Position numbers and translations under genes: made by a program
The notes under the pieces: model-generated
The model's database searches: none
The model's input: the letters and a program-made list of their open reading frames with translations, nothing else
What the model was told of the DNA's origin: nothing
Assembly: GCA_016195985.1 (NCBI GenBank)
Contig: JACPYP010000007.1
Location: 1-64,000, forward strand
Direction: 5' to 3'
DNA from: Acidobacteriota bacterium
GTDB taxonomy: Bacteria > Acidobacteriota > Holophagae > Holophagales > Holophagaceae
DNA length: 64,000 bases
Shown: in pieces, positions 40,273 through 62,410 of the stretch
How the letters are laid out: each line of letters begins with the position of its first letter
Position numbering within the stretch: position 1 is the stretch's first letter

Positions 40273-41633
40273 CCGGAGATGCCGAGCTTCTGCATGCGGC
40301 GGTAGATGGCGCTTCGGCTCAGCCCCAGGGCCTCCGCCGCCTGCGTGGCGCTGCCGTGACGGGCCAGCGCCTTCCGGATCAGCAGGGCCTCCATGTCCTC
40401 GATCCCCAAATCGTCCAGGGAGGGCCGCGCGGCACTGGGGGACAGCAGCAGGTCCGTCGCCCCCAGCGTGGAGCCTGAAGCCATCAGCACGGCCCGTTCC
40501 ACCGCGTGGTCCAGCTCCCGCACATTACCGGGCCAGGGATGCTGCTCCAGCAGGCGCAGGGCGGCCCCGGAGATGCCGGAAACGGCCTTGCGGTAGCGCT
40601 GGACGTGGCGCCCGAGGAACAGCGAGGCCAGGGGCGCGATGTCCTCCCGCCGCTCCCGCAGGGGCAGCAGGTGGATCTCGAAGGTGTTGAGGCGGTAGCG
40701 CAGATCCTGGCGGAACCTGCCGGCGGCGATCTCGGCTTCCAGATCGATGTTGGTGGCGGCGATGACACGCACGTCGGCTGTCTGGGTGCGGCTGGAACCC
40801 ACCCGCTCGAACTCGCCCGTCTCCAGGACGCGCAGCAGCTTGGCCTGTAGGCTGAGCGGCGCGTTGCCGATCTCATCGAGGAACAGCGTTCCGCCGTGGG
40901 CCAGCTCGAAGCGGCCCGCGCGGGATTCCCGGGCATCCGTGAAGGCGCCTTTCACGTGACCGAAGAGTTCCGATTCCAGCACGCCTTCGGACAGCCCCCC
41001 CGCGTTGAGGGTGATGAGCGGTTGCTTGGCCCGCCGGGAGGCCGCATGCAGGCACTTCGCCACCAGGCTCTTGCCCGTGCCGTTCTCCCCCGTGATGAGC
41101 ACGCCCGCATCCGAAGGCCCCAGCCGCTCCAGCAGCTGCACCACCTGCTGCATGGCCTTGGAGCGCGCCACCAGGGGCGCGCCGCCGCCTCCCTCGCCTT
41201 CACCCCGCAGCAGGGCGTTCTCCGCTTCCAGGCGCCGGGACCGGTCCAGGGCCGAAGCCAACTCCAGCTGAGTGCCCAGGGTGGCCAGCAGGCGGGCGTT
41301 CTCCCAGGGCTTCAGCACGAAATCCCGGGCCCCGCGCTTCATGGCCTCCACCGCCAGCTCCACGCTGCCCCAGGCCGTCATCACCACGACCGGCACCGTG
41401 GGTTCCAGGGCGCGGATGCGCTCCAGCAGGTCCAGCCCCTCCTGGCCAGAGGTGGTGTCCTTGGCATAGTTCATGTCGATGAGCGCCAGGTCAGGCGGCG
41501 CCGCCTCCAGAGCGGCCAGTGCCGCCGTGGGACTGGCGACCGCATCCACCTTGAACCCCTCGGATTTCAGGAGGAGCCGCAGGCTCTCCCGGACGTCGGG
41601 CTGGTCATCGGCGAGGAGGATCCGGAAGGACAT
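40269..41633 (-). CDS. NtrC-family sigma-54-dependent response regulator
   Basis: 454 residues. Receiver domain (1-125, DDQPD, phosphoacceptor in [12 protein letters not shown]), AAA+ domain (about 155-385) with Walker A GENGTGKS and Walker [11 protein letters not shown], and a Fis-type HTH ([20 protein letters not shown]). The sigma-54 contact loop reads G-A-F-T-D-A instead of G-A-F-T-G-A; the essential threonine is kept. The gene begins ten bases after the permease remnant and is coupled to its kinase gene. By position it probably controls the permease array. Confidence 0.95.
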
Positions 41634-41643
41634 GGCCTAAGTA

Positions 41644-42094
41644 TCACTCGCTTCGCAGCGCTTTTGCTGGATCCACGCGGGCGACGCGGAGGGCGGGAAA
41701 GAGGCAGGCCACCAGGCCCGCGAGGAGCAGGGCCAGGGCGCTGAAGACGAGGTCGGGGATGCCGAGGCTTGGGAGGCGCCGGGCCAGCGCCAGTGGCCGA
41801 GCCGCATCAGGGCCCACACGCCGCCCATGCCACACGCCAAGCCAGGGCCTCAAACCGCGGATGCGATAACCGTTCCCCGGCCTCGCCGCTCCCCTTGGAA
41901 ACCACCCCCACCTTGGCCAGCCGATCCAGCCGGGGCAGCGGCAGAGGTCGGAACAGCACGGCCTGCAGAATGGCGTGCGGCGCCACGTTGACCCCGATGC
42001 CCAGGGCCAGCACGAGCACCACGGGCACGGTGAAGCCCGGGCTGCACCGGAGGGATCGCAGGGCCTGACGGAGTTCCAGAAACAGGGTGTCCAT
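41644..42094 (-). pseudogene. Internally deleted ADOP permease remnant
   Basis: The 5' part encodes a normal ADOP N-terminus (ELRQALRSLRCSPGFTVPVV, ILQAVLFRPLPLPRLDRL, about 90 residues). It then jumps to C-terminal sequence in other frames: GGVWALMRLGHWRWPG in one, and LVFSALALLLAGLVACLFPA ending ALRSE in the next. Some 650-700 residues of the usual 800 are missing, and at least one frameshift follows the junction near 41840. The 3' 100 bases are nearly identical to the 3' end of the permease gene at 44531, so this is a recent decayed copy. Confidence 0.88.
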
Positions 42095-42104
42095 CAACGG
42101 CCTC

Positions 42105-44483
42105 TCATTCGCTTCGCAGGGCCTCGGCGGGTTGGACCCGCAGGGCTTGAAGGGCGGGCGCCAGGCTGGCAAGGGTGGCCATGAGGGCCAGGCCGGCCAG
42201 GGTGAGAAGCAGGGAAGCGGGGTCCTGGGGCTGAAGTTTCAGGAGCAGGTCTTCCAGGACCCGACGCCCCGCGAAGGCCAGCATCAGTCCCAGGCCCAGG
42301 CCGACCCCCACCGGGGCGATGGCTTGGCGCAGCACTTCGAGGACCACGTGGCGGGCCTCGGCTCCCACGGCGCGGCGAATGGCCCACTCCTTCCGCCGCG
42401 AGGCTGCCAGGTAGGCCAGGACACTGTAGAGGCCGAAGCCCGCCAGCAGGAGGGCCACCTGGGTGAACCCCATCAGCAACAGAATGGTTCCCCGCAGGGT
42501 GGCGGTCTGGGTCTGGGCCAGGGCATCAAAAGCGTCGAGCTTGGCGATCCGCCAGCCGGGAAGGTTCGGAGGCAGATCCTTCCGCAGGCGGTCCATGAGC
42601 GCCTGCGTCGATCCTCCACCCCACACCCACAGGGAAAGGCTGGACCTGGAACCTGGAATCGCATGGAAATAAAGCCGCGGGGCGCTGCGCCCCTCCTGGG
42701 TTTGTGGACGCACCGCCCCAGCCACGCCGATCACCTCCAGGGGCTGCATCCGGCCGACCTGGCTGAGGATGCGTCCACCCACCGCGTTCCCTTCGGGGAA
42801 GTGGGCACGGGCCAGGGTGTCGTCGATGATCACGACGTCTTCGCTGTCCCCAGCCCGAAAATCGCGGCCCTGGCGAAGGGGAATGCCCAGGGTGCGGAAG
42901 TGATCCCCACTCACCCATTCGCAGACGGATTCGCCTTTGGAGGGCTCTCCCGCGGCCCTGGGCACCTCGAAGTTGTTCACCCCGCTGTCCTGCTCCCAGG
43001 GGAGCCAGCCGCCGCTGGAGGCACTCTGCACGCCGGGGAACTGGCGCACCTGAGCCAGCAGCCGCTCGGCTTCCAGGGGTGGCGCACCCTTCTCCGCCTT
43101 CAGCACCACGCGGACGCGGCCCTGGGTCTCGAAGCCTGGGTGTTGGGACTGAAGCAGGCGCAGGGAGCGGATGCTCAGAATGGCGAAAAAGAGGAGGCTG
43201 ACCGCCAGGGCGACCTCCAACGCCACCAGGGCGCGGGTCCCAGGGCCTTGGCGGGGGCTGCTGCGATCGCTGGAGAGGCCCGCCAGAGCCGCGTGGCGGG
43301 TCAACCGCCAGGCGGCGAGTCCGGCCGCGCCCAGGGTGGCCAGACTCGCCAGAACCGCCAGGACGCCCAGGGTGGCCCATCCCGGGGCCAGACCCTTCAG
43401 CTGAGGGACGAGGCTGGGCAGAAGGGCCAGCAGCATATGGATCAGGGCAGGCTGGAGGGCCAGCGCCAGCAGGGCACCCCCGCTGGCGAGAATCGCGCCC
43501 TCCAGCAGGAAGGATCCGATCAGGGTCCCCCGTCCGGCACCGAGGGCCAGGCGGAGCGCGGTTTCGCGGCTTCGGCGCAATCCACGCACCAGCATCAGGT
43601 TGGCGACGTTGGCGCAGGCGATGAGCAGTATGAGCAGGGTGATGCCTTGGATGAGCAGGCCGGTGGCCCTCCCGTGGGCCACCAGCACCTCACGCAGGGG
43701 ACGCAGCCTCGGGAGCGCCATGCCCTTTTTGAACCAGGGGGGCAGGGGCAGGGTTTCCTCCAGACGGGTCAGCTCCACGCCGGCCTCCTGGAGCGTGCGG
43801 CCCGGCGCGAGGCGGGCCACCATGCGCACATGGCCCCCCGCACGTCGCTGGGCCTCGGCATCGGGAAGGGCCAGGGGCCTGAGCAGACCGTCATCCAGGG
43901 TCGGGAACAGGGAACTGCGGAGGCTGGGCAGCACACCCACCACGCGCACAGGCGTGTCATCCATGCGGATGGTGCGTCCCACAATCGACGGATCGCCGGC
44001 AAAAGTCCGCTTCCAAAGGGCCTCACCCAACAGCGCCACGGGCTCGCCGCCCGGGCGATCCTCCTCCTTCAGGAAGGCCCGCCCTTGAAGGGGCCGGACG
44101 CCCAGGGTCGCCAGCAGATCCCAGCTGGCCCGTTGCAGGGGAACGGGCAGGTCGCCCCCGTCCTGGGTCAGGATGCCCTGTTCGGGATACAGGAAGAGCC
44201 CTGCGCTGGAGAAGGCATGGGCCTGCTCCCGGTAGAGCAAGGCATCGGGGGGACACAGTCCGATGGCCAGGCTCCCCGGATCCTGACTGGACACGGATTC
44301 CACATAGACGAGCCCATCGACTTGCGCCGCGGGCAGCGGGTGCAGGAGGAGGCGGTCCAGCAGGGTGGCGCCCACCGCGGCGGCCCCCAGCCCCAGGGTG
44401 AGGAGGGCCAGGGTCGTCGCCGTGAAGCCGGGGGCGCGGAGCAGGCCGCGCAGGGTGCTGCGGAGTTCAGACAGGATGGACAT
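42105..44483 (-). CDS. ADOP-type ABC permease (copy A)
   Basis: 792 residues with two tandem MacB_PCD plus FtsX units, about eight membrane helices. TM1 lies near 18-40 and the first FtsX region carries ACANVANLMLVRGLRRSRETA. The second FtsX region carries ASRRKEWAIRRAVGAE, a variant of the usual TREIGIRMALGA. The first helix lacks the family's GxGAN motif (it reads LGLGAAAVGATLL). It is the most divergent of the A-E copies and the last complete one before the remnant and the two-component genes. ATG 44483 is used; the open frame to 45098 runs into the previous gene. Confidence 0.92.
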   Translation of the reverse strand: MSILSELRSTLRGLLRAPGFTATTLALLTLGLGAAAVGATLLDRLLLHPLPAAQVDGLVYVESVSSQDPGSLAIGLCPPDALLYREQAHAFSSAGLFLYPEQGILTQDGGDLPVPLQRASWDLLATLGVRPLQGRAFLKEEDRPGGEPVALLGEALWKRTFAGDPSIVGRTIRMDDTPVRVVGVLPSLRSSLFPTLDDGLLRPLALPDAEAQRRAGGHVRMVARLAPGRTLQEAGVELTRLEETLPLPPWFKKGMALPRLRPLREVLVAHGRATGLLIQGITLLILLIACANVANLMLVRGLRRSRETALRLALGAGRGTLIGSFLLEGAILASGGALLALALQPALIHMLLALLPSLVPQLKGLAPGWATLGVLAVLASLATLGAAGLAAWRLTRHAALAGLSSDRSSPRQGPGTRALVALEVALAVSLLFFAILSIRSLRLLQSQHPGFETQGRVRVVLKAEKGAPPLEAERLLAQVRQFPGVQSASSGGWLPWEQDSGVNNFEVPRAAGEPSKGESVCEWVSGDHFRTLGIPLRQGRDFRAGDSEDVVIIDDTLARAHFPEGNAVGGRILSQVGRMQPLEVIGVAGAVRPQTQEGRSAPRLYFHAIPGSRSSLSLWVWGGGSTQALMDRLRKDLPPNLPGWRIAKLDAFDALAQTQTATLRGTILLLMGFTQVALLLAGFGLYSVLAYLAASRRKEWAIRRAVGAEARHVVLEVLRQAIAPVGVGLGLGLMLAFAGRRVLEDLLLKLQPQDPASLLLTLAGLALMATLASLAPALQALRVQPAEALRSE

Positions 44484-44530: not shown

Positions 44531-46909
44531 TCACTCGGATCGCAGCGCTTCCGCTGGATCCACGCGGGCGGCGCGGAGGGCGGGAAGGAGGCAGGCCACC
44601 AGGCCCGCGGCAAGCAGCGTCAGCGCGCTGAAGGCCAGATTCTCCGCCTCCACTTGCGGCAGTCCCGGCCAGCGGAGGTGCAGCAGGCGCATGGAGCACC
44701 AGACCGAGGCCAGGCCCAGGGCGAGGCCCAGCCCCAGCAGCCGCAGGCCCCTGCCCATGACGCTGGCCAGGAGGTGGCGCGCCGTGGCGCCCAGGGCCGC
44801 GCGGATGCCCATGTCGCGCCGCCTCAATGCCACGTGCAGGTTGAGGGCGGCCCAGAGGCCGAAGCAGGCCAGCAGGAGAGAACCCGCGCCCAGCAATCCC
44901 AGCAGGCGCATGTTCTGATGTTCCTGGTGCAGCGTGGCCGCCACGTGATCTCCCAAGGTGAGGATCCGGCTTGGCTCCGCGCCCGGCTTTTCCAGGGCCA
45001 GCGCGTCCTTCATCCGCGCCATCAGGGCCTGGGCATTGCCCCGGCCCTGCACCAGGAGGCAGCATTGCTCCATCTGCAGCCACTGGGGCGTGAGCCACAA
45101 CATGGGCAGATGGAAATCGGGATCGGGACGCATGCGGTGGTCGGCCACCACGCCCACCACCTCCACGGGGGTCTTGCCGCCGAAATGGATCATCCGGCCC
45201 GCGGCGGGGCCGTGGGGGAAGAAACGCCGGGCGAGGCTTTCGTTGAGGATCACCTTGTCCTGCCCATCGAGGTCGCTGAATTCCCGCCCCTCGATCACCG
45301 CCACGCCAAGGGCGCGGAACCAGTCCCCGCCCACCACGGCGCCCGGAAAGTTCTCGGTTCCGGTGCGCTCGCCGCCCTGGACCCCGAAGGTGAAGCGGAA
45401 GCTGCCCATGGGCGCGCTGACTCCCCGGGCCGCAGAGGCCACCTCGGGCATGGCGCGCAGCCGCGCCAGCAGGCGGTCGGGAAGGCCCGGATCATTCTTG
45501 GTGCTGAAGGTCATGAAGGCCCGCTGCGCCGTGGGATAGCCAGTCCGGGCCGCGCTCCGGAAAGCCCCCAGGGCCACGCTGGCGGCCGCCAGGAGCGCCA
45601 AGGAAAGCGCCACCTGAGCGGCCACGAAGGCGCCTCCGCCCGCCGGGGTTCCAGCCCCGTGGCTCCGGGAACCCAGGACCCGGGCCGGATCCAGATGCCG
45701 CGCCCTCAGCAGCGGCGCCAGGGCCGCCAGCAGGAGCGAGAGGCCGGTGAGCCCCAGGCCCAGGGCCAGAATGCGGCCGTCCAGAACCGGCAGATGCCCC
45801 CCCACGGGAACTGTCTGCCCCGGGCTGAGCATCAGGCTCCGCGCCAGGAAGAGCCCCGACCCCAGAGCCACTGGAGCGGCCATGGCGGCCAGCCACAGGG
45901 CCTCCGCCAGCAGGGGTGCCATCAGCTGCTTGCCCCCCGCCCCCAGGGCGCTGCGGGTGGCGAGTTCCTTCTCGCGGCGCGCCGCCCGGGCCGCGAACAG
46001 GCCCGAGGCGCCCACGATGGCGAGCAGCAGGGCCAGGCCCGAGGCGATGAGGAGCAGGCTCCGCTGGGGCAGCACCCGATTCAGCACCTTCTGTTCGGAG
46101 GCATCCAGGCCCTCCAGGGCGAAGCGTTTTCCGCCATCGGGGGCCGTGGCCAGAACACGGCTCGCGGCGTCCAGGGCGGCCTGCGCCTCGGTCCGGGTGG
46201 CCCCGGGCTTCAACCGGGCGCTGACGAGAAAGCCCGGGTAGCGCCGGCTTTGAAGCAGGTCCCTCGACACGCCGCCCAGTTGGATGCCGGACGCCAACGG
46301 CAGCCACAGGTCTTCCTTCTGCCCCAGCTCCAGGCCCTCGAACCCGGCGGGGCCCACGCCCACCACCGTCAGGGGCACGGGGCATCCCTCCGCCCGCAGC
46401 GAAGCCCCGAGGATGGCTGGATCGCCATGGAAGGCCGTGCGCCAGAGGTGGTGGCTGAGAACCATCACTGGGGCGCCAGAGGCCTCCTCCTCCGCCGTGA
46501 AGGCCCGGCCCAGGGAAGGCCGGAGCCCCAGCACGCGGAACCAGCCCGGCCCCACCAGCGGGGCCGAAGCCGCGACCCTGCGGTCGCCCAGGCTCAGGAT
46601 GAGATCATCCCGGTCGTTGAAGGAGGTGGCCATGCCCGCGAAGGGGCCCGGGCTGTCCCTCAGCTCCTCGGCCTGGGGATAGGACATCCGCCAGAGCGCC
46701 TTCTCCCCTTTGAGCGCCTCCTTGACCAGCACCAGGCTGTCCCGGTCTTCCACGGGCAGGGGCCTCAGCAGCACGGTGGAGAGAATGGCGTGCAGCGCCA
46801 CATTGGCCCCCAGTCCGAGCCCCAGCACCAGCACGATGGGAAGGGTGAATCCGGGCGCACGGAGGAGGGCGCGCAAAGACTGCCGGAAGAGGAGAAAGAG
46901 GTTGGACAT
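44531..46909 (-). CDS. ADOP-type ABC permease (copy B)
   Basis: 792 residues. The N-terminal motif is FRQSLRALLRAPGFTLPIV then LGLGLGANVALHAIL. First FtsX region: GLFAARAARREKELATRSALGAG; second: GLWAALNLHVALRRRDMGIRAALGAT. The C-terminus is AEALRSE. It is closely related to copy C, including a nearly identical stretch coding for VADHRMRPDPDFHLPM in both. The start lies four bases after the copy C stop, with GCGAG before it in the C terminal codons. Copies of this type normally act in mechanotransmission ABC systems rather than pumping across the inner membrane. Confidence 0.94.
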   Translation of the reverse strand: MSNLFLLFRQSLRALLRAPGFTLPIVLVLGLGLGANVALHAILSTVLLRPLPVEDRDSLVLVKEALKGEKALWRMSYPQAEELRDSPGPFAGMATSFNDRDDLILSLGDRRVAASAPLVGPGWFRVLGLRPSLGRAFTAEEEASGAPVMVLSHHLWRTAFHGDPAILGASLRAEGCPVPLTVVGVGPAGFEGLELGQKEDLWLPLASGIQLGGVSRDLLQSRRYPGFLVSARLKPGATRTEAQAALDAASRVLATAPDGGKRFALEGLDASEQKVLNRVLPQRSLLLIASGLALLLAIVGASGLFAARAARREKELATRSALGAGGKQLMAPLLAEALWLAAMAAPVALGSGLFLARSLMLSPGQTVPVGGHLPVLDGRILALGLGLTGLSLLLAALAPLLRARHLDPARVLGSRSHGAGTPAGGGAFVAAQVALSLALLAAASVALGAFRSAARTGYPTAQRAFMTFSTKNDPGLPDRLLARLRAMPEVASAARGVSAPMGSFRFTFGVQGGERTGTENFPGAVVGGDWFRALGVAVIEGREFSDLDGQDKVILNESLARRFFPHGPAAGRMIHFGGKTPVEVVGVVADHRMRPDPDFHLPMLWLTPQWLQMEQCCLLVQGRGNAQALMARMKDALALEKPGAEPSRILTLGDHVAATLHQEHQNMRLLGLLGAGSLLLACFGLWAALNLHVALRRRDMGIRAALGATARHLLASVMGRGLRLLGLGLALGLASVWCSMRLLHLRWPGLPQVEAENLAFSALTLLAAGLVACLLPALRAARVDPAEALRSE

Positions 46910-46913
46910 GGTG

Positions 46914-49313
46914 TCACTCGCTTCGCAAAGCTTCCGCCGGATTCACCCGGGCGGCGCGGAGGGCGGGCAGGAGGCAGGCCAGCAGGCCCGTGGCGGTGAG
47001 CGCCCCCATGGCCGCGAGCAAATCCAGCGGCGAGACGGCCGGAAGCCCTGACCACCGGGCCGAAGCCACGCGAGCCAGCAGCGCGATCAACACGCCACCC
47101 GCCGCCAAGCCCAGAACCAGCAGCCGGGTGCCCAGGCCCAGCACCCGCTGGGCCAGCTGCCGCGCCGTGGCGCCGAGGGCCATGCGGATGGCCAGTTCCC
47201 GGCCACGCAATGCCACCTGCAGGTTGAGGGCGGCCCAGAGGCCGAAGCAGGCCAGCATCAGCGATCCCAGCCCCAGGCTGCCCAGCAGACGCACGTTCTG
47301 GTGCTCGTGATGGAGGGTGGCCGCCACATGATCTTCCAGCGTGATCACCTTTCCGGGCTCGAGGTTGGGAGCCTCCTGGCGGAGCGCCTCCCGGAGCCGC
47401 GCCGCCACCTGCCGCCCGGACCCGGAACCCGCGGCCAGGATCCAGAATTGCCCCGTGGGGATGTCCGCCAGGTAGGCGTCGGAGAGCCAGATCATGGGCA
47501 GGTGGAAATCGGGATCGGGGCGCATGCGGTGGTCCGCCGCCACGCCGATCACATCGTAGGACTGATCAGATCCGCTTGTCAGCTTCCGCCCCACGGCATC
47601 GCCTTCAGGGAAGAAGCGGCGGGCCAGGGTTTCGTTCAGAATGACCGGCCCATGCCCGTCGCCGTCCCGGAAGCCCCGGCCCTGAGCCAGGGGCACGCCC
47701 AGCGCCTGAAACCAATCCGGCCCCACCAGGCAGGCCGGAAGGAAGAGTGTCTCGGCCCGGTCGCCGCCCGAAAGGCTGAAGGTCGCCCGGCCGCTGGCAT
47801 CCAGGGGCGCCACGATGCCCCGCGCCGCCACCGTGATCTGGGGCATGGCGCGCAGCCGCGCCAGCACGCGCTGGCTCAGGGCCCGGTCCTCGCCGGCATC
47901 CGCGGACAGCATGGCGCGGTGCGCGGTGGGATAGCCGGTCTTGGCCGCCCGGCGGAAGGCCCCCAAGGCCATGCTCGACGCCACGAGCAGCAACAACGAG
48001 AGCGCCACCTGGGCGGCCACGAACCATCCGCCGCCCTGGCGGGTATGGCCGCGCCCGCCCTGCCCTGCGATGGCACGGGTCAGGTCCATGCGCCGCACCC
48101 GCAGCAGGGGGATCAGGGCCGCCGCCATGAGCGCCGCCAGGCTCAGGCCCACGCCGAAGGCGAGCAGGCGGGCATCCAGCGCGGGCAGCAGGAAGGCCTG
48201 GGAGGCCGCCTCGCCGGGCTTGAGCATGAAGCGCCGCGCCAGCGCGAGGCCTGAACCCAGCGCCACCGGGGCGGCCAGCATCGCCAGCAGCAGGGCCTCC
48301 AGCAGCTGGACACGCAACAGGTTTCCCAGGCTGGCCCCCAGCGCGCAGCGGGTGGCCAATTCCCGTTCGCGGCGCGCGGCGCGGGCCGCGAACAGCCCCG
48401 AGGCCGCCACCACCGCCAGGAACAGCGCCATCCCCGCCGCCAGAAGAAGCAGCGAACGCTGAGGCAGCACCAGGTCCAACAGATCCCGTTCGGCCTTGGA
48501 GGGATCCACCGCCACGTAGCGGCGGCCGGAATTGGATTCGGGATGGAGCTTGGCCTGAAGCGCGCTGACGCTTTCCAGGGCCGTCCGGGCCTGGGCGAGG
48601 CTGAGGCCGGGCTTCAGCCGGACCAGCACCTGGAAGGCCGGCATGTCCCGGCTGGTGAAGAACCCCGGCGGCAGGTTGGGAGCCAGCTTCGGGAGGGACT
48701 TCAGCGGCATCCAGCAATCCTCCCGCCGGCCCAGCTCCAGGCCCTCGAAACCGGCCGGACCCACCCCCACCACGGTGACCGGCTGGTTCCGGTCGCCCAT
48801 GGGGAGGGCGCGGCCAAGGATGCCGGGATCCGCGTGGAAGGCCGTCTTCCACAAACGATGGCTCAGGACGACCACGGAGGCCCCCGAGGCCTCTTCATCG
48901 GGCGTGAATCCGCGCCCCTGGCTCATGCGCAGGCCCAGCAGCGCCTGCCAGCCCGCCCCCACCATGGGAACCCGCACCGGCAGCTTGCGGTCCCCCACGG
49001 GCAGCGTGGAGTCCGAATCCATCACCACGGGCACCATCCCCGCGAACGGGGAGACGGAGGCCGCCAAGTCCTCGGCCTGGGGCAGGGAGAGATTCTCCAG
49101 CCCCCGCTCCCCTTTCTTCTCCAGGCGGAGGGTGGCCAGGCTCTCCCGGTCCGCCACCGGGAGCGGACGGAGGAGGATGGTCTGCAGGATGGCGTGGAGC
49201 GCCACATTGGCGCCCAGGCCGAGCCCCAGCACCAGCACGATGGGCACCGTGAATCCGGGCGAGCGGAAGAGGGCCCGCAGGGCCTGGCGGAGGATGGGGA
49301 CGAGGTTCAACAT
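46914..49313 (-). CDS. ADOP-type ABC permease (copy C)
   Basis: 799 residues with LRQALRALFRSPGFTVPIV at the start, GLFAARAARRERELATRCALGA in the first FtsX region and ACFGLWAALNLQVALRGRELA in the second. It is the nearest relative of copy B. The ATG is preceded by CGGAG supplied by the last Ser-Glu codons of copy D, and the copy D stop lies four bases before it. Confidence 0.94.
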   Translation of the reverse strand: MLNLVPILRQALRALFRSPGFTVPIVLVLGLGLGANVALHAILQTILLRPLPVADRESLATLRLEKKGERGLENLSLPQAEDLAASVSPFAGMVPVVMDSDSTLPVGDRKLPVRVPMVGAGWQALLGLRMSQGRGFTPDEEASGASVVVLSHRLWKTAFHADPGILGRALPMGDRNQPVTVVGVGPAGFEGLELGRREDCWMPLKSLPKLAPNLPPGFFTSRDMPAFQVLVRLKPGLSLAQARTALESVSALQAKLHPESNSGRRYVAVDPSKAERDLLDLVLPQRSLLLLAAGMALFLAVVAASGLFAARAARRERELATRCALGASLGNLLRVQLLEALLLAMLAAPVALGSGLALARRFMLKPGEAASQAFLLPALDARLLAFGVGLSLAALMAAALIPLLRVRRMDLTRAIAGQGGRGHTRQGGGWFVAAQVALSLLLLVASSMALGAFRRAAKTGYPTAHRAMLSADAGEDRALSQRVLARLRAMPQITVAARGIVAPLDASGRATFSLSGGDRAETLFLPACLVGPDWFQALGVPLAQGRGFRDGDGHGPVILNETLARRFFPEGDAVGRKLTSGSDQSYDVIGVAADHRMRPDPDFHLPMIWLSDAYLADIPTGQFWILAAGSGSGRQVAARLREALRQEAPNLEPGKVITLEDHVAATLHHEHQNVRLLGSLGLGSLMLACFGLWAALNLQVALRGRELAIRMALGATARQLAQRVLGLGTRLLVLGLAAGGVLIALLARVASARWSGLPAVSPLDLLAAMGALTATGLLACLLPALRAARVNPAEALRSE

Positions 49314-49317
49314 GGCA

Positions 49318-51708
49318 TCACTCCGAACGCAGGGCCATGGCCGGATCCACCCGCGCGGCGCGCAGGGCTGGGATGAGGCAAGCCATCAGGCCGATGAGGC
49401 CGAGCGTGGCGAGCACCAGCATATGAGTGACCGGATCCTGCGCGGTGACGCCGTAAAGCTGGGACTGCAAGAGGCGCCCCAACAGAAGGGCGGTGCCAAG
49501 GCCCAACAGGAGACCCAGGCCCAGGGTCCGCACGCCCTGGCTGATGATGAGATGCAGCACGTCCCGGATCTGCGCCCCCAGGGCCATGCGGATGCCGATC
49601 TCCCGCGTGCGCTGCGCCACCAGGAAACTGGTCACGCCGTAGACGCCGACGGCGGAAAGCAGCAGGGCCACCAGCCCGAAGGCGCCGAAAAGCACGCCCT
49701 GGGCCCGGTACTCGCTCATGTCCTGTTCGATGAGGGCGGGCATGGGGCGCACTTGGGACAGGGGCAAGTCCGGATCCAGCTCGCGCAGGGCGGCCTTGAG
49801 CCCGGGGGTAAGGGCCTCGGGCGCGGCCTCTCCCCGAAGGGTGAGGGTGAAGAAGCTGAGGGTTCCGCCATCGGGGTTCATCATGGGCAGGTAGAGCTGA
49901 GGCCCTGGTGCTTCCGAAATACGGCGCGTGTGCACATTGCCAGCCACCCCCACGATGCTCAGCCAGGGGCCGTCGCTGCCGTTGAAGGAGACCCGGTGCC
50001 CCGTGGGATCCTGGCTCGGCCAGTGGCGATTGGCGAAGGCCGCCGACACCACGGCCACGCCGCCCTCCTGGCCCTGGAAGGCACGCCCGCGCAGCAGGGG
50101 AATGCCCATGGTCTCGAAGAAGGCCGGCGTGATTTCGAGCACCTGCGTGTGCGGGCTTTCGCCATCACCCGATTGGCCGTCGAGCAGGTAGGTGGAGGTG
50201 CTGGTGCTGCCGCCGAGAGGAAGGGTGTCCACTGCGGCGACGGATGCCACGCCCGGGCTCTGCTGGGCGCGATGAATGAGGTGATCCAGAAACTCGCGCT
50301 GCCGTTGGGGCGTGCCGTACTTGGTGCGGGGCAGCGCGATGCCCGCCGTGAGCACCCGGTCTGATTGGAAGCCGGGGTTCACCTGCTGCAACACCGAGAG
50401 GCTTCGAATCATGAGGCCCGCGCCCGCGAGCAGGGTGGTGGCCAGGGCCACCTCCGCCGTGACGAGGGCGCGGCGCAGGCGTTTCTGGGCGTGGCCGGTG
50501 CCCTTCGCGCCCTCTCTCAGACTGGCTTCCAGGTTCACACGGCTGGCCTGCCAGGCCGGCAAAAGGGCGAAAAGGAACACCGAGAGGAAGGCGGTGGTGA
50601 GACTGATGGCCACCATGGGGCCGTCCAGGGCCGGCCCGTCCATGGGCGAGCGGGGAATGAGGGTCAGCAGCCCCACCATGGCATAGCGGGCCAGCACCAA
50701 CCCGGCGAGGGCCCCGAACAAGGCCAGCAGCGCCCCTTCGGCCAGCATCTGGGCCACGAGCTGGTGGCGGCCCGCGCCGAGGGCCGCCCGGATGGAGATG
50801 TCCCGCTCCCGGGCCGCGTTTCGGGCCAGGAGGAGGTTGGCCACGTTGCCGCAGGCAATGAGCAGCACGAAGAGCACCGCCCCCATGAGCGCGAAGAGCA
50901 CGGGGCGGGCGTTGCGGGTGGCCTCCTCCTGCACGGACACCACCTTGCCCTGGTAGCCCGCATCGTTATTCGGATAGGCGGCGGCCAGGCGCTGGATGAT
51001 GCCATGGACCTCCTGCTGGGCCGCCTTGGGATCCACCCCGGGCTTCAGGCGCCCGAGGCCCCCCAGAAAGTGCGAGCCCCGCTGATCCAGCTGGTTCGGA
51101 GCCAGGCGCAAAGGAACGAACACCTCGGAGTTTCCGACCTGGTAGGGCACGCGGAAACCCTCGGGCATCACGCCCGCCACGGGCACGTCCTCGCCGTCCA
51201 GGCGGATGGACCGGCCCACCACGGACGGATCGGCGCCGAAGCGCCGCTTCCAGAAACCGTGAGTGAGGATCACGGCCTTGGGCCCTCCCTGCGCGCCTTC
51301 CTCGGCCGTGAAGGCCCGCCCCAGGAACGGCCGCACGCCCGCCACATCGAAGAAGCGCCACGTCACGCGCCCTGAGCGGACCCGCTCGGGATCGCCATCC
51401 CCCGTGAGGTTCACCGAACCGCTCGCCACCGCGGCCAGGGCCGAGAAGGACTGGACTTCCCGCTCCACATCCAGGTAGTCCGGCCAGGAGAAATTGTCGA
51501 AGCCCACGTCCTTGAACTCGGTCACCACCATCACCCGCGAAGGCTCGGGCAAGTTCATGGCGCGCAGCAGGCGCCGCTCCATGAGGCTGAAGACCGTGGT
51601 GTTCGCGCCGATGCCAAGCCCCAGGGTCAGGATGACCGTCAGGCTGAAGGCCGGTGTGCGCAGGAGGCTGCGAAAGGCCCAGCGGAGATAGAACAAAGGG
51701 GTGGTCAT
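49318..51708 (-). CDS. ADOP-type ABC permease (copy D)
   Basis: 796 residues. First FtsX region: CGNVANLLLARNAARERDISIRAALGAG; second: GVYGVTSFLVAQRTREIGIRMALGAQ, both close to the family consensus. The first half starts FRSLLRTPAFSLTVILTLGLGIGANT. The C-terminus is AMALRSE, and its Ser-Glu-stop codons form the ribosome-binding site for copy C. Its own start uses the same arrangement from copy E. Confidence 0.95.
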   Translation of the reverse strand: MTTPLFYLRWAFRSLLRTPAFSLTVILTLGLGIGANTTVFSLMERRLLRAMNLPEPSRVMVVTEFKDVGFDNFSWPDYLDVEREVQSFSALAAVASGSVNLTGDGDPERVRSGRVTWRFFDVAGVRPFLGRAFTAEEGAQGGPKAVILTHGFWKRRFGADPSVVGRSIRLDGEDVPVAGVMPEGFRVPYQVGNSEVFVPLRLAPNQLDQRGSHFLGGLGRLKPGVDPKAAQQEVHGIIQRLAAAYPNNDAGYQGKVVSVQEEATRNARPVLFALMGAVLFVLLIACGNVANLLLARNAARERDISIRAALGAGRHQLVAQMLAEGALLALFGALAGLVLARYAMVGLLTLIPRSPMDGPALDGPMVAISLTTAFLSVFLFALLPAWQASRVNLEASLREGAKGTGHAQKRLRRALVTAEVALATTLLAGAGLMIRSLSVLQQVNPGFQSDRVLTAGIALPRTKYGTPQRQREFLDHLIHRAQQSPGVASVAAVDTLPLGGSTSTSTYLLDGQSGDGESPHTQVLEITPAFFETMGIPLLRGRAFQGQEGGVAVVSAAFANRHWPSQDPTGHRVSFNGSDGPWLSIVGVAGNVHTRRISEAPGPQLYLPMMNPDGGTLSFFTLTLRGEAAPEALTPGLKAALRELDPDLPLSQVRPMPALIEQDMSEYRAQGVLFGAFGLVALLLSAVGVYGVTSFLVAQRTREIGIRMALGAQIRDVLHLIISQGVRTLGLGLLLGLGTALLLGRLLQSQLYGVTAQDPVTHMLVLATLGLIGLMACLIPALRAARVDPAMALRSE

Positions 51709-51712
51709 GGCA

Positions 51713-54106
51713 TCACTCCGATCGCAGCACTTCGGCGGGGTTGACGCGCGCGGCCCGCAGGGCCGGCACGAGGCAGGCGAGGAGGGCGGCGGGCACCAGC
51801 AGCGCGAGCACGCCCAGGTAGATGAGGGGTCCCGCCTGACTGAGGCCGTAGAGGAATTGGCCCAGGGCGCGGGTCATGCTCCAACCGAGGAGCGAGCCCA
51901 GGCCCAGCCCCAGCCCCACCATGGCACCGGCCCCCGACAGGAGGCCCGCCACCACCTGGGTCCGGGTGGCCCCGAGCGACATGCGGATGCCGATGTCGCG
52001 GCGGCGCTGCAAGGTAATTTGACTCAGCACGCCGTAGAGCCCCACGGCCGATAAGAGCAGGGCCACCAGGCCGAAGGCGAAAAACAGGATGCTGGCCATG
52101 GACTGCGTGGCCATGCTCACCTGCAGCACGTCCATCATCGGCCGGGGCTCCGGCAGCGCGAGATCCAGGTCCAGGGCCCGGATGGTGGTTTTCACAGGAG
52201 TGGCGTAGCGGGCGGGATCGCCCTGCACCCGCACCGCCACCACCGGTCCCTCGAACAGCGTGTGGGCCTCAGCAGAGACGTAGAATTGCGGATCTTCCTT
52301 CTTGCTGAGGTCGTTCTCAGCCGTGTCTCCCACCACGCCAGCGACGACGAAAGGCTTCGGGAAGCCGGCGTAGACGGGCCGTCCCAGGGGGTCGGCACCA
52401 GGCCACAGGCTCGCGGCGAGGCGGCGGCTCACGACGCAGGCCTGGGCATCGGCCAAGGGGAGGGTCTGGCCCGCCACCAGCGGAATGCCCATGGCCTTGA
52501 AGTAGCTCGGGGACACCACGTGCCAGCGGATGTAGACGCCCCTGTCCCCGCTCGGCGCCTGGCGATCCCTGGGGGCGGCATTCACGAACCCGCCGTTGGT
52601 GGCTTTCACGAAGGGCAGCGTGTCGTTGACGCCGACCGCCTTCACGCCAGGAAGGGCCGCCAGATCCGCCTCCAGCTGCCGGATAAACGTCGTCTGCCGG
52701 GCCAGGTCGTACTTTTGGGGCGGCAGGGGAACGTTCACCGTGAGCACCTCCCTGGCTTCGAACCCGGGCGACGCATGACGCAGGTTCTGGAGGGTGTGGA
52801 TCAGCAGCCCCGCCCCCAGCAGGAGCATGACGGACAGCGCGACCTCCGCCACCACCAGCCCCCTGAGCACGCGCCAGTGGGTGCGCGAGTGGCTGCCGCG
52901 GCTGCCCCGCAGCGCCTCCATCACCTTGGCGCTGCGGGACATGAACCAGGACAGGAAGGCGAGGCCGAGTCCGGTGAGGAGGCTGAGCCCCAGGGCCGCG
53001 GCGATGAGCGCCGGGTAGAGGCTGGCCTCCACGGGAATGGGAGTGAGGTCCTTCATCAACCAGGCGAGACCCTGCTGCAGGTAATAGCTGAGCCCGACGC
53101 CCAGGCCACCGCCGAGCCCCGCGAGGATCAAGCTCTCGGCGAGAAACAGGCGGCCCATCTGGCCCTGCCCCGCCCCCAGCGCTTGGCGGATGGCCAGCTC
53201 CCGGCGCCGGGCCATGTCCCGCACCAGCTGCAGGCCGGCCACGTTGAAACAGGTGATGAGGAGCACGATGGCCACGGCCCCCTGGAAGGTCAGCAGCACC
53301 TGTTTGTACCCGGCGGCGGCCTGGTCCAGCATGCGGCTCACCCGCACATCGAAGCGGGGGTCGCCAACCTGGGCGCCGATGCGACCGGCCGCCACGTGGA
53401 TTTCGGTCTGGACCTGCTGGAAGGTGGCGCCGGGGCGCAGCCGGCCGATGGCGAGAAAGGTGCCCATCCCCCGGTTGTTCCGCCCTGCGAACGGCGTGGC
53501 CTCGGGCGTGAGGATCTGGGAATTGGAGATGCGATCATAGAACCGGAAATTCGCGGGCAGTACACCCACCACTTGCACGGCCTTCCCATCGAGGACGACG
53601 GTCCGTCCCAGCACCGCCGGATCGCCGTGGAACTGGGCCATCCAGAAATCGTGGCGGAGCACCCCCACAGTGGCGGGCAGCACTTCCTCCTCAGCCCGGA
53701 AGACAAGGCGGCCCAGCGCGGGCTTCACGCCCAGCACGCCAAAGAAATCCGCCGTCACCATCCCCACGTCCACGCGGATGGGCTCGCCCTGGCCCGTGAG
53801 GGTGCGCGTCCGCGCCGTGCAGGCCGCCATGGACTCAAAGCCCTTGCCCTGGGCCTGCACATCCAGAAAATCCGCCATGGTCATGGGATCGCCCGCGCCC
53901 GTTCCGGTGTTGATGGGTTCGATCACCGCCAGGCGAGCGTTGTCCGGATAGGGCAACGGCCGCAGGACCAGGCGGTCCACGTGGGAGATCACGGCCAGGT
54001 TCGCCCCGAGCCCCAGGGCCAGGCACAGCGTGGCGGTGATGAGGAAGCCGGGCGAACGCAGGAGGCTGCGGAAGGATTGGCGAAGATCGAAGAGCAGGGT
54101 GAACAT
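51713..54106 (-). CDS. ADOP-type ABC permease (copy E)
   Basis: 797 residues. It starts LRQSFRSLLRSPGFLITAT, has FNVAGLQLVRDMARRRELAIRQALGAG in the first FtsX region and GLYGVLSQITLQRRRDIGIRMSLGAT in the second, and ends AEVLRSE. AAAGG stands before the ATG. The 36-base gap to copy F is the first break in the four-base spacing pattern of copies B-E. Confidence 0.95.
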   Translation of the reverse strand: MFTLLFDLRQSFRSLLRSPGFLITATLCLALGLGANLAVISHVDRLVLRPLPYPDNARLAVIEPINTGTGAGDPMTMADFLDVQAQGKGFESMAACTARTRTLTGQGEPIRVDVGMVTADFFGVLGVKPALGRLVFRAEEEVLPATVGVLRHDFWMAQFHGDPAVLGRTVVLDGKAVQVVGVLPANFRFYDRISNSQILTPEATPFAGRNNRGMGTFLAIGRLRPGATFQQVQTEIHVAAGRIGAQVGDPRFDVRVSRMLDQAAAGYKQVLLTFQGAVAIVLLITCFNVAGLQLVRDMARRRELAIRQALGAGQGQMGRLFLAESLILAGLGGGLGVGLSYYLQQGLAWLMKDLTPIPVEASLYPALIAAALGLSLLTGLGLAFLSWFMSRSAKVMEALRGSRGSHSRTHWRVLRGLVVAEVALSVMLLLGAGLLIHTLQNLRHASPGFEAREVLTVNVPLPPQKYDLARQTTFIRQLEADLAALPGVKAVGVNDTLPFVKATNGGFVNAAPRDRQAPSGDRGVYIRWHVVSPSYFKAMGIPLVAGQTLPLADAQACVVSRRLAASLWPGADPLGRPVYAGFPKPFVVAGVVGDTAENDLSKKEDPQFYVSAEAHTLFEGPVVAVRVQGDPARYATPVKTTIRALDLDLALPEPRPMMDVLQVSMATQSMASILFFAFGLVALLLSAVGLYGVLSQITLQRRRDIGIRMSLGATRTQVVAGLLSGAGAMVGLGLGLGSLLGWSMTRALGQFLYGLSQAGPLIYLGVLALLVPAALLACLVPALRAARVNPAEVLRSE

Positions 54107-54142: not shown

Positions 54143-56572
54143 TTACTCGGCCCGCAGGGCGATGGCGGGATCGATCCGCGCCGCGCGCAGGGCCGGCGCG
54201 AGGCAGGCCAGGAGCGCCACCACGCAGAGGAGGGAGGCCACCGCCAATCCCGTGACGGGATCCAGGGTGCCTAGGCCCACCATCTGGCTGGCCAGAAAGC
54301 GTCCGGTGAAGAGCGAGGCCAGGGCTCCCGCTCCCACGCCCAACAGCGTGAGCTTGAACCCCTGCCCCACCACCAGAAGCAGGACAGTCCGCACCTGGGC
54401 GCCGAGGGCCATGCGGATGCCGATCTCGCGCGTGCGCTGCGTCACCCCAAAGGCGATCACGCCGTAGATGCCTACCCCCGCCAGGATCAAGGCCAGGGCC
54501 GCGAAGGCCCCCAGGAGGGCCATGGTTTGGCGGCGGTTCCCAAGGCTCCGGACGATCTGGTCCCCGTACGGCTCGAAGCGGTCGAGGGCCATCCCGCTGT
54601 CGAGGCTGCGCACTTGCTCGCGGATGGCGGACTGGAGCGCGGCGAAGGAGGCGGGACTCTTCACGAAAAGGGTGAAGCCCGCGTTCTGGGAGCACTGGCC
54701 CAGGGGCACGTACACCATGGGCGGGGCCTCCCGATCCAGGCCGCGCTGCCGGATGTCGCCCACCACCCCCACGATGTCCCAAAGGGTGTCCCTGGGGGTG
54801 ACCTCGCTCCAGAAACCCCCGAGGATCTGGAGGCCCAGCACCTGTCCATCGGGCGCCAAGGCCCGGGCCATGCTTTCATTCACCACCACCACGCGCCGCC
54901 CCTCGGTGTTGTCGGAGGGCAGCAGCGGCCGGCCCTGGCGCTGAGCGATGCCCAATGTCTCGAAGAACCCTGGGCTCACCAGGTTCACGCTGGCGCGGTG
55001 GGACCAGCGGGTGGAGGGCGCCGAGGTGGGACCCAGGTTGATGGCCGTGGTCCAAGCCCCGCCTGACACCGGCGCGAAGCGGGCCATTCCCACCGACGCG
55101 ACCCCAGGGATCTCCTTCAAGCGGCGCTGCAATTCCTCCTGAAAGGCCGTGCGCTGGGCGTGGTCGCCATAGCGGTTGCCTGAAATGGCCACATCGAAGG
55201 CGATGACCTGGCGGCTTTCAAACCCCCGCGGGGCATCCAGCACCTTGAGGTAGCTCCTCCCCAGCAGCCCTGCGGTCATGAGCAGCAGCATGGCGAGGGC
55301 CACCTCGGCCGCCACCAGGCCGGATCGGAGCCTCCCCGCGGGCGCGCTGCCCTTGGCGCCGCCGCGAAGATCCTGGCTCAGGTGCGCCTCTCGGAGCTGC
55401 CAGGCAGGCGCCAGCGCAAAGAGCAGGCCGGTGGCGGCGGCGAGGCCGAACGTGTAGACGAGCGTCCATCCATCGATCGAAAGGCGCTGGATCTGGTTCA
55501 GGTTCCCGGCGTTGGGCAGCAGGGCGGGCAACAGGCGAAGGGTGAAGGCCGCCATCCCCAACCCAATCAGGCCCCCGGCCAAACCCACCAGAAGCCCCTC
55601 GGCCAGCAGCATGGCCACCAGCTGAAGCCGGGTGGCCCCCAGCGCGGCCCGCAGCGACACCTCCCTTTCCCGCATGATGGCCCGGACCAGGAACAGGTTG
55701 GCCACATTGGTGCAGGCAATGAGGAGCAGGAGGCTCACTGCACCCAGCAGGAGCAGCAAAGGCCGGGTTCCTTCCCCGATGATGTCGTCATGCAAATCCC
55801 TCACGACCGCGCCACGGCCCTCATTGGTTCCGGGATGGATCCGGGCGAGATCCGCCGCGATGATGGACAGCTCACTCTGGGCCGCGGCCACTGAAACTCC
55901 GGGCCGGAGCCGTCCAAAGGCCGGAAGGCTGTGGCTGCCGCGGGCATCATCCCGCGTCGGCCGGCCAAGAGGGACATACAGGTCCTGGTTTTCACCCGAC
56001 GCGTAGAGGAAACCCTCCGGCGCCACCCCCAGCACCTGGAAGGATTCCCCGCTCAGCCGGATGCTGCGGCCCACCACGGCCGGATCTCCGCCGAATTGGC
56101 GCTGCCACAGCCCATGGCCGAGAACCACCACCTTGTTCTTCCCCGCCTGATCCATGTCCGGAAGAAAGGTGCCTCCCAACAACGGGCGAACCCCCAGCAA
56201 CTCGAAGAACCCAGGGCTCACCACCAGGGCCGAGACGCGCTGGGCCTGGTCGGCGCCCTCCATGTCGAAGGCCGTGGCGGCGGCCACGGACATCCCTTCG
56301 AAGCTGCGAGCAGCCCGCTCCTGCCAGTCGTAGAAATCGGGCGCTGAAAGGGTGAGGGCGTTTTCCTTCAGGTGCGGGCGCGATTCCCACAGCGCCACGA
56401 GCTGGTGCGCGTCCCGGTAGGGCAAGGGCTTGACCACGAGCCCCCGGATGGCGCTGAACATCGCCGAATTGGCCCCGATGCCCAGGGCCAGCGTGAGCAG
56501 GGCGGTCAGGGTGAAAGCCGGAGCCTTCAGGAGGCTGCGCAGCGCATGTTTGAGGTTCATTGCCCAATCCAT
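54143..56572 (-). CDS. ADOP-type ABC permease (copy F)
   Basis: 809 residues. With copy G it forms a second subgroup: both have LGIGANSAMFSAIRGL in TM1, ACTNVANLFLVRAI/ARAL in the first FtsX region, G-I-Y-G-V-I/V-A-F in the second, and end in RAE instead of RSE. ATG 56572 has GGAG six bases upstream; a second ATG at 56560 is possible. Confidence 0.95.
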   Translation of the reverse strand: MDWAMNLKHALRSLLKAPAFTLTALLTLALGIGANSAMFSAIRGLVVKPLPYRDAHQLVALWESRPHLKENALTLSAPDFYDWQERAARSFEGMSVAAATAFDMEGADQAQRVSALVVSPGFFELLGVRPLLGGTFLPDMDQAGKNKVVVLGHGLWQRQFGGDPAVVGRSIRLSGESFQVLGVAPEGFLYASGENQDLYVPLGRPTRDDARGSHSLPAFGRLRPGVSVAAAQSELSIIAADLARIHPGTNEGRGAVVRDLHDDIIGEGTRPLLLLLGAVSLLLLIACTNVANLFLVRAIMREREVSLRAALGATRLQLVAMLLAEGLLVGLAGGLIGLGMAAFTLRLLPALLPNAGNLNQIQRLSIDGWTLVYTFGLAAATGLLFALAPAWQLREAHLSQDLRGGAKGSAPAGRLRSGLVAAEVALAMLLLMTAGLLGRSYLKVLDAPRGFESRQVIAFDVAISGNRYGDHAQRTAFQEELQRRLKEIPGVASVGMARFAPVSGGAWTTAINLGPTSAPSTRWSHRASVNLVSPGFFETLGIAQRQGRPLLPSDNTEGRRVVVVNESMARALAPDGQVLGLQILGGFWSEVTPRDTLWDIVGVVGDIRQRGLDREAPPMVYVPLGQCSQNAGFTLFVKSPASFAALQSAIREQVRSLDSGMALDRFEPYGDQIVRSLGNRRQTMALLGAFAALALILAGVGIYGVIAFGVTQRTREIGIRMALGAQVRTVLLLVVGQGFKLTLLGVGAGALASLFTGRFLASQMVGLGTLDPVTGLAVASLLCVVALLACLAPALRAARIDPAIALRAE

Positions 56573-56625: not shown

Positions 56626-59055
56626 CTACTCGGCCCGCAGGGCCGCGCCCGGATCCACCCGCGCCGCTTTCAGCGCGGGCGCCAGGCAGGACAACAGGGC
56701 GATGGCGCAAAGGAGGGCGGCCACACCGAGGCTGGTGAGGGGGTCCACGGCGCTGACACCCACCAGCTGGCTCGCCAGGAGGCGCCCCGTGAACAGCGCG
56801 CCCGCCAGCCCCAGGAGAATCCCCGCTGCGGCGAGCCGCAGACCCTGCCCCAGGATGAGGCTGAGCACCTGGCTCACCTGGGCGCCGAGGGCCATCCGGA
56901 TGCCGATCTCGCGGGTGCGCTGGGCCACGCTGAAGGCCACCACGCCGTAGATGCCGATGCCCGCAAGCAGAAGAGCCAGGGCCGCGAACACCCCCAGCAG
57001 GATGGCCGTCTGGCGGCGGTCCCCCGCGCTGTCCCGGACCAGGTCCTCCAGGGCCGCGAAGTCCCGCAGGGCCAGGTCGCGGTCCAGGCCGTTCACCTGC
57101 TCGCGGATGCCGGCGCGAAGGGCTCCGAAGCTGGCCGTACTGCGCAGGTAGAAGGTCAGGGGCGAACCCGCCACCTGGCTGGTGGGCACGAAGTACATGG
57201 CGCGAGGCGCCCTCTCCAGGTCCCGCTGGTGGATGTCGCCCACCACGCCCACGATCTCCCAAAGGCTGTTCTCGGGAACGGCCTGGCTGGATACGCCCAG
57301 CATCAGGCGCTGCCCCAGCGCCGATCCGCCTGGGAAGAGGGTCCGCGCCATGGTCCGGTTCACCAGCACCACGGGCCGGGCCCCCGCCTTATCCGTGGGC
57401 TCGAGGCCGCGGCCCTCCAGCAGCGGAATACGCAGGGACTTGAAGAAGCCCGGGCTGACGGCATTCATGTCCGCCTGATGGGGCCAGCGCACATGCGACA
57501 GCGAGGTGGGCCCGATGTTCACGTAGGTCGATGCTCCCGATCCCGAGAAGGGGCCCAGCTGACAGGATCCCGCCGAGGCCACGCCAGGCAGCTGCTCCAG
57601 GCGCCGCTCCAGCTCGGCGCGGAAGGCCTCCTGCTGGGTTTCTTGGGGGTAGCGGGTCTCCGGAAGCTCGATGGTGAAGGTCGCCACGCCCCCGGCCTCG
57701 AACCCAGGGTGAGTGTCCATCACCTTGAGGAAGCTCCGCAGGAGCAGCCCCGCGCTCAGCAGCAGAAGCATGGCCAGGGCCACTTCCCCCACCACCAGGG
57801 CGGAGCGCAGCCGGCCCGGCGCCGCGCTGCCCTTGGCCCCCTGGCGGAGCTGAAGGTTCAGCTGGCTGGGTTTCAGCTGCCAGGCCGGGGCCGCGGCGAA
57901 AGCCAGGCTCACCAGGAAGGAGCAGGCGAAGGTGAACAGGAGGGCCCAGCCATCCAGTCCGAGGTTCTGCACATTGTTGAGGTTCCCCGTGTTGGGCAGG
58001 ACGCTGGGCAGCACCTTCAGCAGCAGAGCGGCGAGGAGCAACCCCAAGGCCGAACCGACCAACCCGATGGCCAGACCCTCGGCCAGGAAGCGGGAGAAGA
58101 GCTGGGCCCGGTTGGCGCCCAGGGCTGCCCGCAGGGCCACCTCCCGCTCTCGAGACAGGGCCCGGGCCAGGAACAGGTTCGCCACGTTCGTGCAGGCGAT
58201 GAGCAGCAGCAGCCCCACCGCCCCCATGAGCAGCAGGATAGGCTTGGCGCCGGCACCCAGCAGGTCGGCGCGGAAATCCCGCACTTCCGCCGAGCAGCCC
58301 TCATTGGTGGCCGGATAGAGCGACGCCAGGTTTTGGGCGATGGCCGCCAGCTCCGTCCGGGCCGCCGCCAGACTCACGCCGGGGCGCAGGCGCCCGAAGG
58401 CGCGGTATCCGTGGCTGCCGCGCCCTTCGTCGTTTAACGGCCGCGGGAAGGGCGTGTAGAGATCCTGACGGTGATCGGAAGGATAGGAGAACCCTTCGGG
58501 CATCACGCCGATCACCGTGTGGGGCTGGCCGCCGAGGGTCACACTGCGGCCGACCACCGCGGGGTCCGCGCCGAACTCGCGCCGCCAGAGGCCTTGGCTG
58601 AGCACCACCACCTGGTTTTGGCCTGGACGATCCATGCCGGGCGCAAAGGTGTTCCCCAAGTGGGCCCGCGCCCCCAGCAGATCGAAGAACGAGGGGCTGA
58701 CCTGCAGCACGGACACCGGCTGGGGCTCGCCTCCCGTCCGCAGGTCGAGGGTCCCCCGGGACACGATGCTCATGCCTTCGAGGCCAGCGGCGGCTGCATC
58801 CTTCCAATCGAAGAAATTCGGGGCGGAAAAGGGCAACCGGGGCTGCGCCTGGCCGGGCCTCGACTCCCACAGCGCCACCAGCCGCTCGGGTTCCCGGTAG
58901 GGGAGCGGCTTCAGGAGCAACCCCCGGATGGCGCTGAACATGGCTGAATTGGCCCCGATCCCCAGGGCCAGCGTGAGCACGGCCGTGACGGTGAAGAGCG
59001 GTGATTTCAACAAGCTTCGAAGCGCCAGCCGGAAGTCGATCAGGAAGGTGGCCAT
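56626..59055 (-). CDS. ADOP-type ABC permease (copy G)
   Basis: 809 residues, the same length as copy F and its closest relative (shared KPLPYR, VALWESRP and PGFFKSL/PGFFETL segments). Both PCD domains and both FtsX regions are complete. GAGGA precedes the ATG. It follows the ATPase gene by 33 bases, so ATPase and copies G and F probably form the conventional part of this transporter. Confidence 0.95.
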   Translation of the reverse strand: MATFLIDFRLALRSLLKSPLFTVTAVLTLALGIGANSAMFSAIRGLLLKPLPYREPERLVALWESRPGQAQPRLPFSAPNFFDWKDAAAAGLEGMSIVSRGTLDLRTGGEPQPVSVLQVSPSFFDLLGARAHLGNTFAPGMDRPGQNQVVVLSQGLWRREFGADPAVVGRSVTLGGQPHTVIGVMPEGFSYPSDHRQDLYTPFPRPLNDEGRGSHGYRAFGRLRPGVSLAAARTELAAIAQNLASLYPATNEGCSAEVRDFRADLLGAGAKPILLLMGAVGLLLLIACTNVANLFLARALSREREVALRAALGANRAQLFSRFLAEGLAIGLVGSALGLLLAALLLKVLPSVLPNTGNLNNVQNLGLDGWALLFTFACSFLVSLAFAAAPAWQLKPSQLNLQLRQGAKGSAAPGRLRSALVVGEVALAMLLLLSAGLLLRSFLKVMDTHPGFEAGGVATFTIELPETRYPQETQQEAFRAELERRLEQLPGVASAGSCQLGPFSGSGASTYVNIGPTSLSHVRWPHQADMNAVSPGFFKSLRIPLLEGRGLEPTDKAGARPVVLVNRTMARTLFPGGSALGQRLMLGVSSQAVPENSLWEIVGVVGDIHQRDLERAPRAMYFVPTSQVAGSPLTFYLRSTASFGALRAGIREQVNGLDRDLALRDFAALEDLVRDSAGDRRQTAILLGVFAALALLLAGIGIYGVVAFSVAQRTREIGIRMALGAQVSQVLSLILGQGLRLAAAGILLGLAGALFTGRLLASQLVGVSAVDPLTSLGVAALLCAIALLSCLAPALKAARVDPGAALRAE

Positions 59056-62322: not shown

Positions 62323-62410
62323 GGCGCCGTCAGCCTTGCGCGGGGCGCCGTCAGCCTTGGCGCGGGGCGCCGTCAGCGCTGGCGCAGAGCGCCGTCAGCC
62401 TTGGCGCAGG
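62323..62410. repeat. Four-copy 21-22-base tandem repeat at a permease stop codon
   Basis: The core GCGCCGTCAGC begins at 62324, 62345, 62367 and 62389 (period 21, 22, 22). On the minus strand each unit reads like CTGCGCCAAGGCTGACGGCG, which in the first copy is the end of the permease gene (Leu-Arg-Gln-Gly-stop). The remaining copies are therefore duplications of the gene's last codons and stop, placed in the gap before copy I. Confidence 0.88.

Follow-up and report, generated by a model that had tools for sequence, protein, structure and literature searches.

Putative intragenic Shine-Dalgarno sites at the gene junctions of an acidobacterial ADOP permease array

Close gene pairs and a tandem permease array

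In bacteria, a Shine-Dalgarno (SD) sequence that lies inside the upstream member of a closely spaced gene pair is a known and common arrangement. The same system was reportedly treated by Eyre-Walker in 1996, work known through its citation in the close-gene-pair literature. Removal of intragenic SDs from E. coli gene pairs led to a substantial drop in re-initiation in four of five cases (Huber et al., 2019; PMC6728339), and coupling is described as requiring very short distances (Huber et al., 2023; PMC10666635). A literature search on ADOP permeases found no study of arrays such as the one considered here.

The window, i.e., the whole 64,000-nucleotide stretch analysed, carries on its minus strand a row of ADOP permeases (TIGR03434), transcribed in the order I, H, an ABC ATPase, G, F, E, D, C, B, A and a broken remnant, T; behind T come a response regulator of the sigma-54 type (40269-41633) and a gene resembling a histidine kinase (38977-40272). 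These two (38977-41633) share 4 nt and form the end of the array; in G020, G024, G037, G048 and G053, the last permease is succeeded by a gene whose start is similarly response-regulator-like. Besides nine full-length ADOP genes on this contig, the source genome has one at another place. The permeases resemble the ADOP family, which has the FtsX/MacB fold, in their two FtsX halves and LRxE C-terminus, and four of them pass the curated TIGR03434 cut-off of 622.3 bits: D (49318..51708, minus strand; 875.7 bits), E (51713..54106, minus; 700.5 bits), F (54143..56572, minus; 832.6 bits) and G (56626..59055, minus; 874.2 bits). By contrast, C (46914..49313, minus; 507.5 bits), B (44531..46909, minus; 502.3 bits) and A (42105..44483, minus, start inferred by homology; 578.3 bits) fall under it, with matches that are still nearly full-length. 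A Pfam scan of D alone finds MacB_PCD (PF12704) and FtsX (PF02687), each in two stretches. Remnant T (41644..42094, minus) comprises the N-terminal ~90 residues and, in another frame, the last ~43, with the middle missing; its tail, AGC GAG TGA, is intact and adjoins the response regulator. In the spacer ahead of H, a 22-bp tandem repeat (window 62323-62412; 4.1 copies, 88% matches) copies the final codons of permease I together with its stop.

Permease E ends in CTG CGA TCG GAG TGA, followed by TGCC and the ATG of D, and permease D ends in CTG CGT TCG GAG TGA, followed by TGCC and the ATG of C. The reading TCG GAG TGA TGCC ATG, proposed for both junctions by a first-pass annotation, is thus present on the minus strand at E-to-D (GGAG TGA TGCC ATG, 51706..51719, with GGAG at 51716-51719 as the proposed SD of D) and at D-to-C (the same string, 49311..49324, with GGAG at 49321-49324 as the proposed SD of C), and the gap from GGAG to ATG is 7 nt (TGATGCC) at each. 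All five permeases A-E terminate in RSE (VLRSE in E, ALRSE in the others), and F and G in ALRAE. Among the ten permease ends of the array, GGAG occupies the last two codons in two, E and D, and is absent there from I, H, G, F, C, B, A and the remnant T: the C junction has a 4-nt spacer and reads AGC GAG TGA CACC ATG, B ends in TCC GAG TGA and lies 47 nt from the start that follows, and A ends in AGC GAA TGA. The string TGATGCCATG at 51706-51719 and 49311-49324 also contains an out-of-frame ATG that overlaps the stop and opens two- or three-codon ORFs across the true start; this ATG is probably unused because it sits only 2 nt past GGAG.

Ribosome binding and silent codon choice

Both junctions would be best explained, with a probability of about four in five, as ordinary intragenic SD sites of a tightly packed operon. 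Because the LRxE C-terminus is conserved in the permease family, the final codon is usually GAG or GAA; with the next start only 1-5 nt past the stop, the SD would have to fall within the upstream gene, and selection may favour a penultimate codon ending in G ahead of GAG, placing GGAG about 7 nt before the ATG. The GGAG is complementary to the 16S tail, CACCTCCTTT, read from three members of the genus (the 16S 3' end is GGATCACCTCCTTTCT in 3/3 same-genus rRNA loci read); the 16S gene of the source genome itself was not found in its assembly. The mark of an intragenic SD, complementarity to the 16S tail within the upstream coding sequence and 4-11 nt from the next start, is present here as GGAG at 7 nt. 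The predicted 16S duplex at E-to-D and D-to-C continues with a bulge: the stop and the following T give UGAU, which could pair with 16S AUCA across a bulged C. The D-to-C GGAG lies inside a predicted hairpin, and folding of the RNA around the junctions is no stronger than that of shuffles (z 1.7 at E-to-D, 0.4 at D-to-C and 0.8 at C-to-B).

Codon choice at the upstream end goes beyond the synonymous expectation. Permease ends came from the window, from 79 loci of a genome-contig scan and from 33 same-order stretches, 113 sources in all, and 239 of 273 HMM matches were retained after 7 low scores, 21 matches without a C-terminus, one without a stop and 5 duplicates were dropped; 16S pairing was then compared with 200 synonymous resamplings of the upstream codons. 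When the next ADOP start lies within 5 nt, pairing exceeds the resampled sets (n=16, z -4.5, 0/200), while no excess is seen with spacers of 6-12 nt (n=22, z -1.0) or, with a mock start at +4, in genes that have no close neighbour (n=176, z -0.3). A rerun with the 16S tail as read gives z of -5.3, -1.4 and -0.8 for the same three groups, and z -4.75 (n=13) for the closest group when the window's own junctions are excluded. Close pairs with non-ADOP neighbours in the same loci are tuned alike (n=21, z -4.0), those at 0-5 nt alone being few and weak (n=7, z -1.3); since the calling of these neighbours relied on a home-made codon score, the groups with "other" and with no neighbours are approximate.

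Among genes ending in RSE, GGAG is found in 5/11 with a start 0-8 nt on vs 1/22 otherwise (p 0.0096). The association is not significant in wider comparisons: with other close neighbours added, GGAG is present at 10/23 eligible ends vs 15/52 (p 0.29), and sign tests on a tree that was quickly built and carries warned long branches (A with L174; L163 with L186) give a median p of 0.22-0.51 on all rows or nearly all, and of 0.06 with ADOP neighbours only. One gene, L164_19748, counts as an edge case in the main counts, where its stretch ended, and as close in the tree tests, its neighbour lying 4 nt on by inspection.

Could TCG GAG at the Ser-Glu ends be a matter of chance in a genome rich in GC? 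In Holophagales ADOP bodies, TCG makes up 17.9% of Ser codons and GAG 63.4% of Glu codons, so that by our own product of these usages TCG GAG would be expected at roughly 11% of unselected Ser-Glu ends, and some neighbourless genes do end in GGAG (9/72 with no detected neighbour). However, the resampling tests are significant for the close junctions, and the pattern GGAGTGANNNNATG occurs six times genome-wide vs none for its reversal. This chance reading is already disfavoured, and we consider it very unlikely. The other four genomic GGAGTGANNNNATG sites were rejected as evidence: in none of them does the TGA terminate a long upstream ORF.

With spacing, the 16S tail and codon tuning in agreement, GGAG is very probably the SD site of the next gene, as the first-pass annotation had supposed. 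Under the reading as intragenic SD sites, translation of one permease would be expected to contribute to initiation or re-initiation on the next; on the sequence, translational coupling at a 4-nt spacer is plausible, and selection for ribosome binding would be the probable cause of the tuning.

The conserved permease C-terminus

The same annotation held that the binding site explains why RSE is kept in an A-E subgroup. On the tree, A-E do not form a clade, and the C-terminus has a broader distribution: LRxE ends 179/239 genes, with LRYE the commonest form (80/239), and is as frequent with a start within 12 nt (40/54) as without (133/176; p 0.86, with 9 edge cases left out). LRxE also ends 36/44 FtsX-type permeases in other loci, at least six of the 44 being ADOPs of these arrays. 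Being equally common with and without a close neighbour, the LRxE terminus is a family-wide protein feature.

The RSE form behaves differently: it is commoner beside close neighbours (17/54 vs 16/176, p 0.0002; in Holophagales only, 13/22 vs 9/36, p 0.013), and of four definitions of "close" applied on the tree, two uphold this link (p ~0.008) and two give no significance (p 0.125 and 0.625). Equal conservation of the ends in genes lacking a downstream neighbour, which the annotation had named as grounds for giving up its proposal, holds for LRxE; RSE taken alone leans the annotation's way. The enrichment of RSE is what speaks for a ribosome-binding function that retains these residues, yet GGAG is present in only 7/34 RSE genes; since it is missing from 12/17 of those with a close neighbour, the SD cannot be the whole reason for RSE. 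Permeases A, B and C hold RSE without GGAG, and a relative of E, L181, has GGAG without Ser (CAG GAG). Together with the neighbour-independence of LRxE, these cases lead us to reject conservation of RSE on account of the ribosome-binding site, a reading that we regard as highly improbable. RSE genes choose GGAG more often when a start is near, and most close RSE genes do without it; so it is the silent positions that follow the ribosome-binding site, and the residues mostly do not. The junctions cleanly illustrate how terminal codons can serve two purposes, and they caution that conservation of a C-terminus within an operon may stem from the protein family rather than from a ribosome-binding site.

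Descent of the junctions and relation to known systems

The likeness of the E and D junctions had also suggested that gene plus junction was the duplicating unit. Permeases D and E share only 38% residue identity and belong to different clades, and a comparison of junctions across ADOP clusters finds others in their relatives: the nearest relative of D (L168_10379, 88% identical; D' below) has AGT GAG TGA and a 21-nt spacer, the next (L164_14902) GCG GAT TAG and a 39-nt spacer, and relatives of E end in TCG GAA TGA (2-nt spacer), CAG GAG TGA (1 nt) or CAG GAC TGA (27 nt). Duplication of gene plus junction therefore does not account for the E/D match, and this origin was rejected.

Alternatively, the junction could be a recombination seam, at which upstream permease bodies are exchanged while the last codons, the spacer and the ribosome-binding site stay with the downstream gene. 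Both G000 and G020 have CGT TCG GAG TGA TG[C/T]C ATG at the start of permease C, yet the preceding permease is D in G000 and a non-orthologous paralog, W, in G020. W (L164 14942-17344) is a full-length ADOP permease, ~39% identical to G, from a one-contig genome; it ends in CTT CGT TCG GAG TGA TGTC ATG, the ATG being that of the C ortholog. A single in-frame TAG interrupts W, which marks either a pseudogene or a sequencing error. Among 240 other permease tails, the last 24 nt of D (eight codons including the stop, 49318..49341, minus strand) are nearest to those of W (22/24), and the reverse holds too, while D matches its own ortholog D' at only 16/24; just upstream of the tail, D and D' agree at 11-12 of 12. 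Between D and D', the tail is more diverged than the last 600 nt (p=0.015). A near-identical 24-nt stretch at -60 to -37 is common to D, D' and W. Ser codons switch box (TCN/AGY) between orthologs in the tails of 3/4 pairs vs 5/112 in the bodies, in a test picked after the data had been seen.

A further pattern, AGCGAGTGATACTN{3,8}ATG, in which the motif AGCGAGTGATACT precedes an ATG, occurs once each in 4/47 genus genomes. This ATG is in every case the start of the array-end response regulator, and the motif stands behind four different permeases (T, Z, B' and D'), as an extra, untranslated tail in G037 and G048. Such extra untranslated copies of a permease tail, at L166 12856-12900 and L168 10380-10402, lie behind the array-end permeases and before the response regulator of G037 and G048, and contain 11-bp units like AAGCGAGTGAT.

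Other observations fit exchange at the junctions poorly. Permease tails are no more alike within than between genomes (codon identity 0.453 vs 0.468), which also led to rejection of general gene conversion of tails within a genome; the tail ahead of B in G000 is not the one ahead of B in G037, and the tail of E follows E. A downstream gene is shared by two of the three non-orthologous RSE tail pairs that are most alike in the genus, an outcome with a chance of ~6% by our reckoning. The mosaic pattern, with the junction tracking the downstream gene, is suggestive only, and a recombination seam is unlikely, if worth entertaining, as its origin. In its general form the proposal would shift the transmitted unit of ADOP arrays relative to the reading frame: a permease's final ~8 codons, the stop, the spacer and the ribosome-binding site would belong by descent to the downstream gene, and bodies would be swapped by recombination in the conserved 3' stretch. 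We hold this form to be doubtful. If true, the conserved C-terminus would be a seam allowing exchange of permeases with the start site of the next gene kept, could also explain why RSE tracks close neighbours even without GGAG, and would provide a mechanism for turnover within large tandem transporter arrays that leaves translation of the next gene intact, with predictable breakpoint positions. A literature search found nothing on junction-preserving gene replacement.

The favoured reading, an intragenic SD at each of the two junctions, has close counterparts. At E-to-D and D-to-C, as in the close gene pairs of Palleja et al. (2009; PMC2784483), a spacer of 1-4 nt goes with an SD within the upstream coding sequence and constrained last codons; there is no difference in kind, except that the codons here fall on a conserved permease C-terminus. 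With termination-reinitiation coupling through an intragenic SD (PMC6728339; PMC10666635) the two junctions have in common the SD in the upstream 3' end and a very short gene distance, whereas the published cases centre on overlaps of -4/-1 and the ADOP junctions have a spacer of +4.
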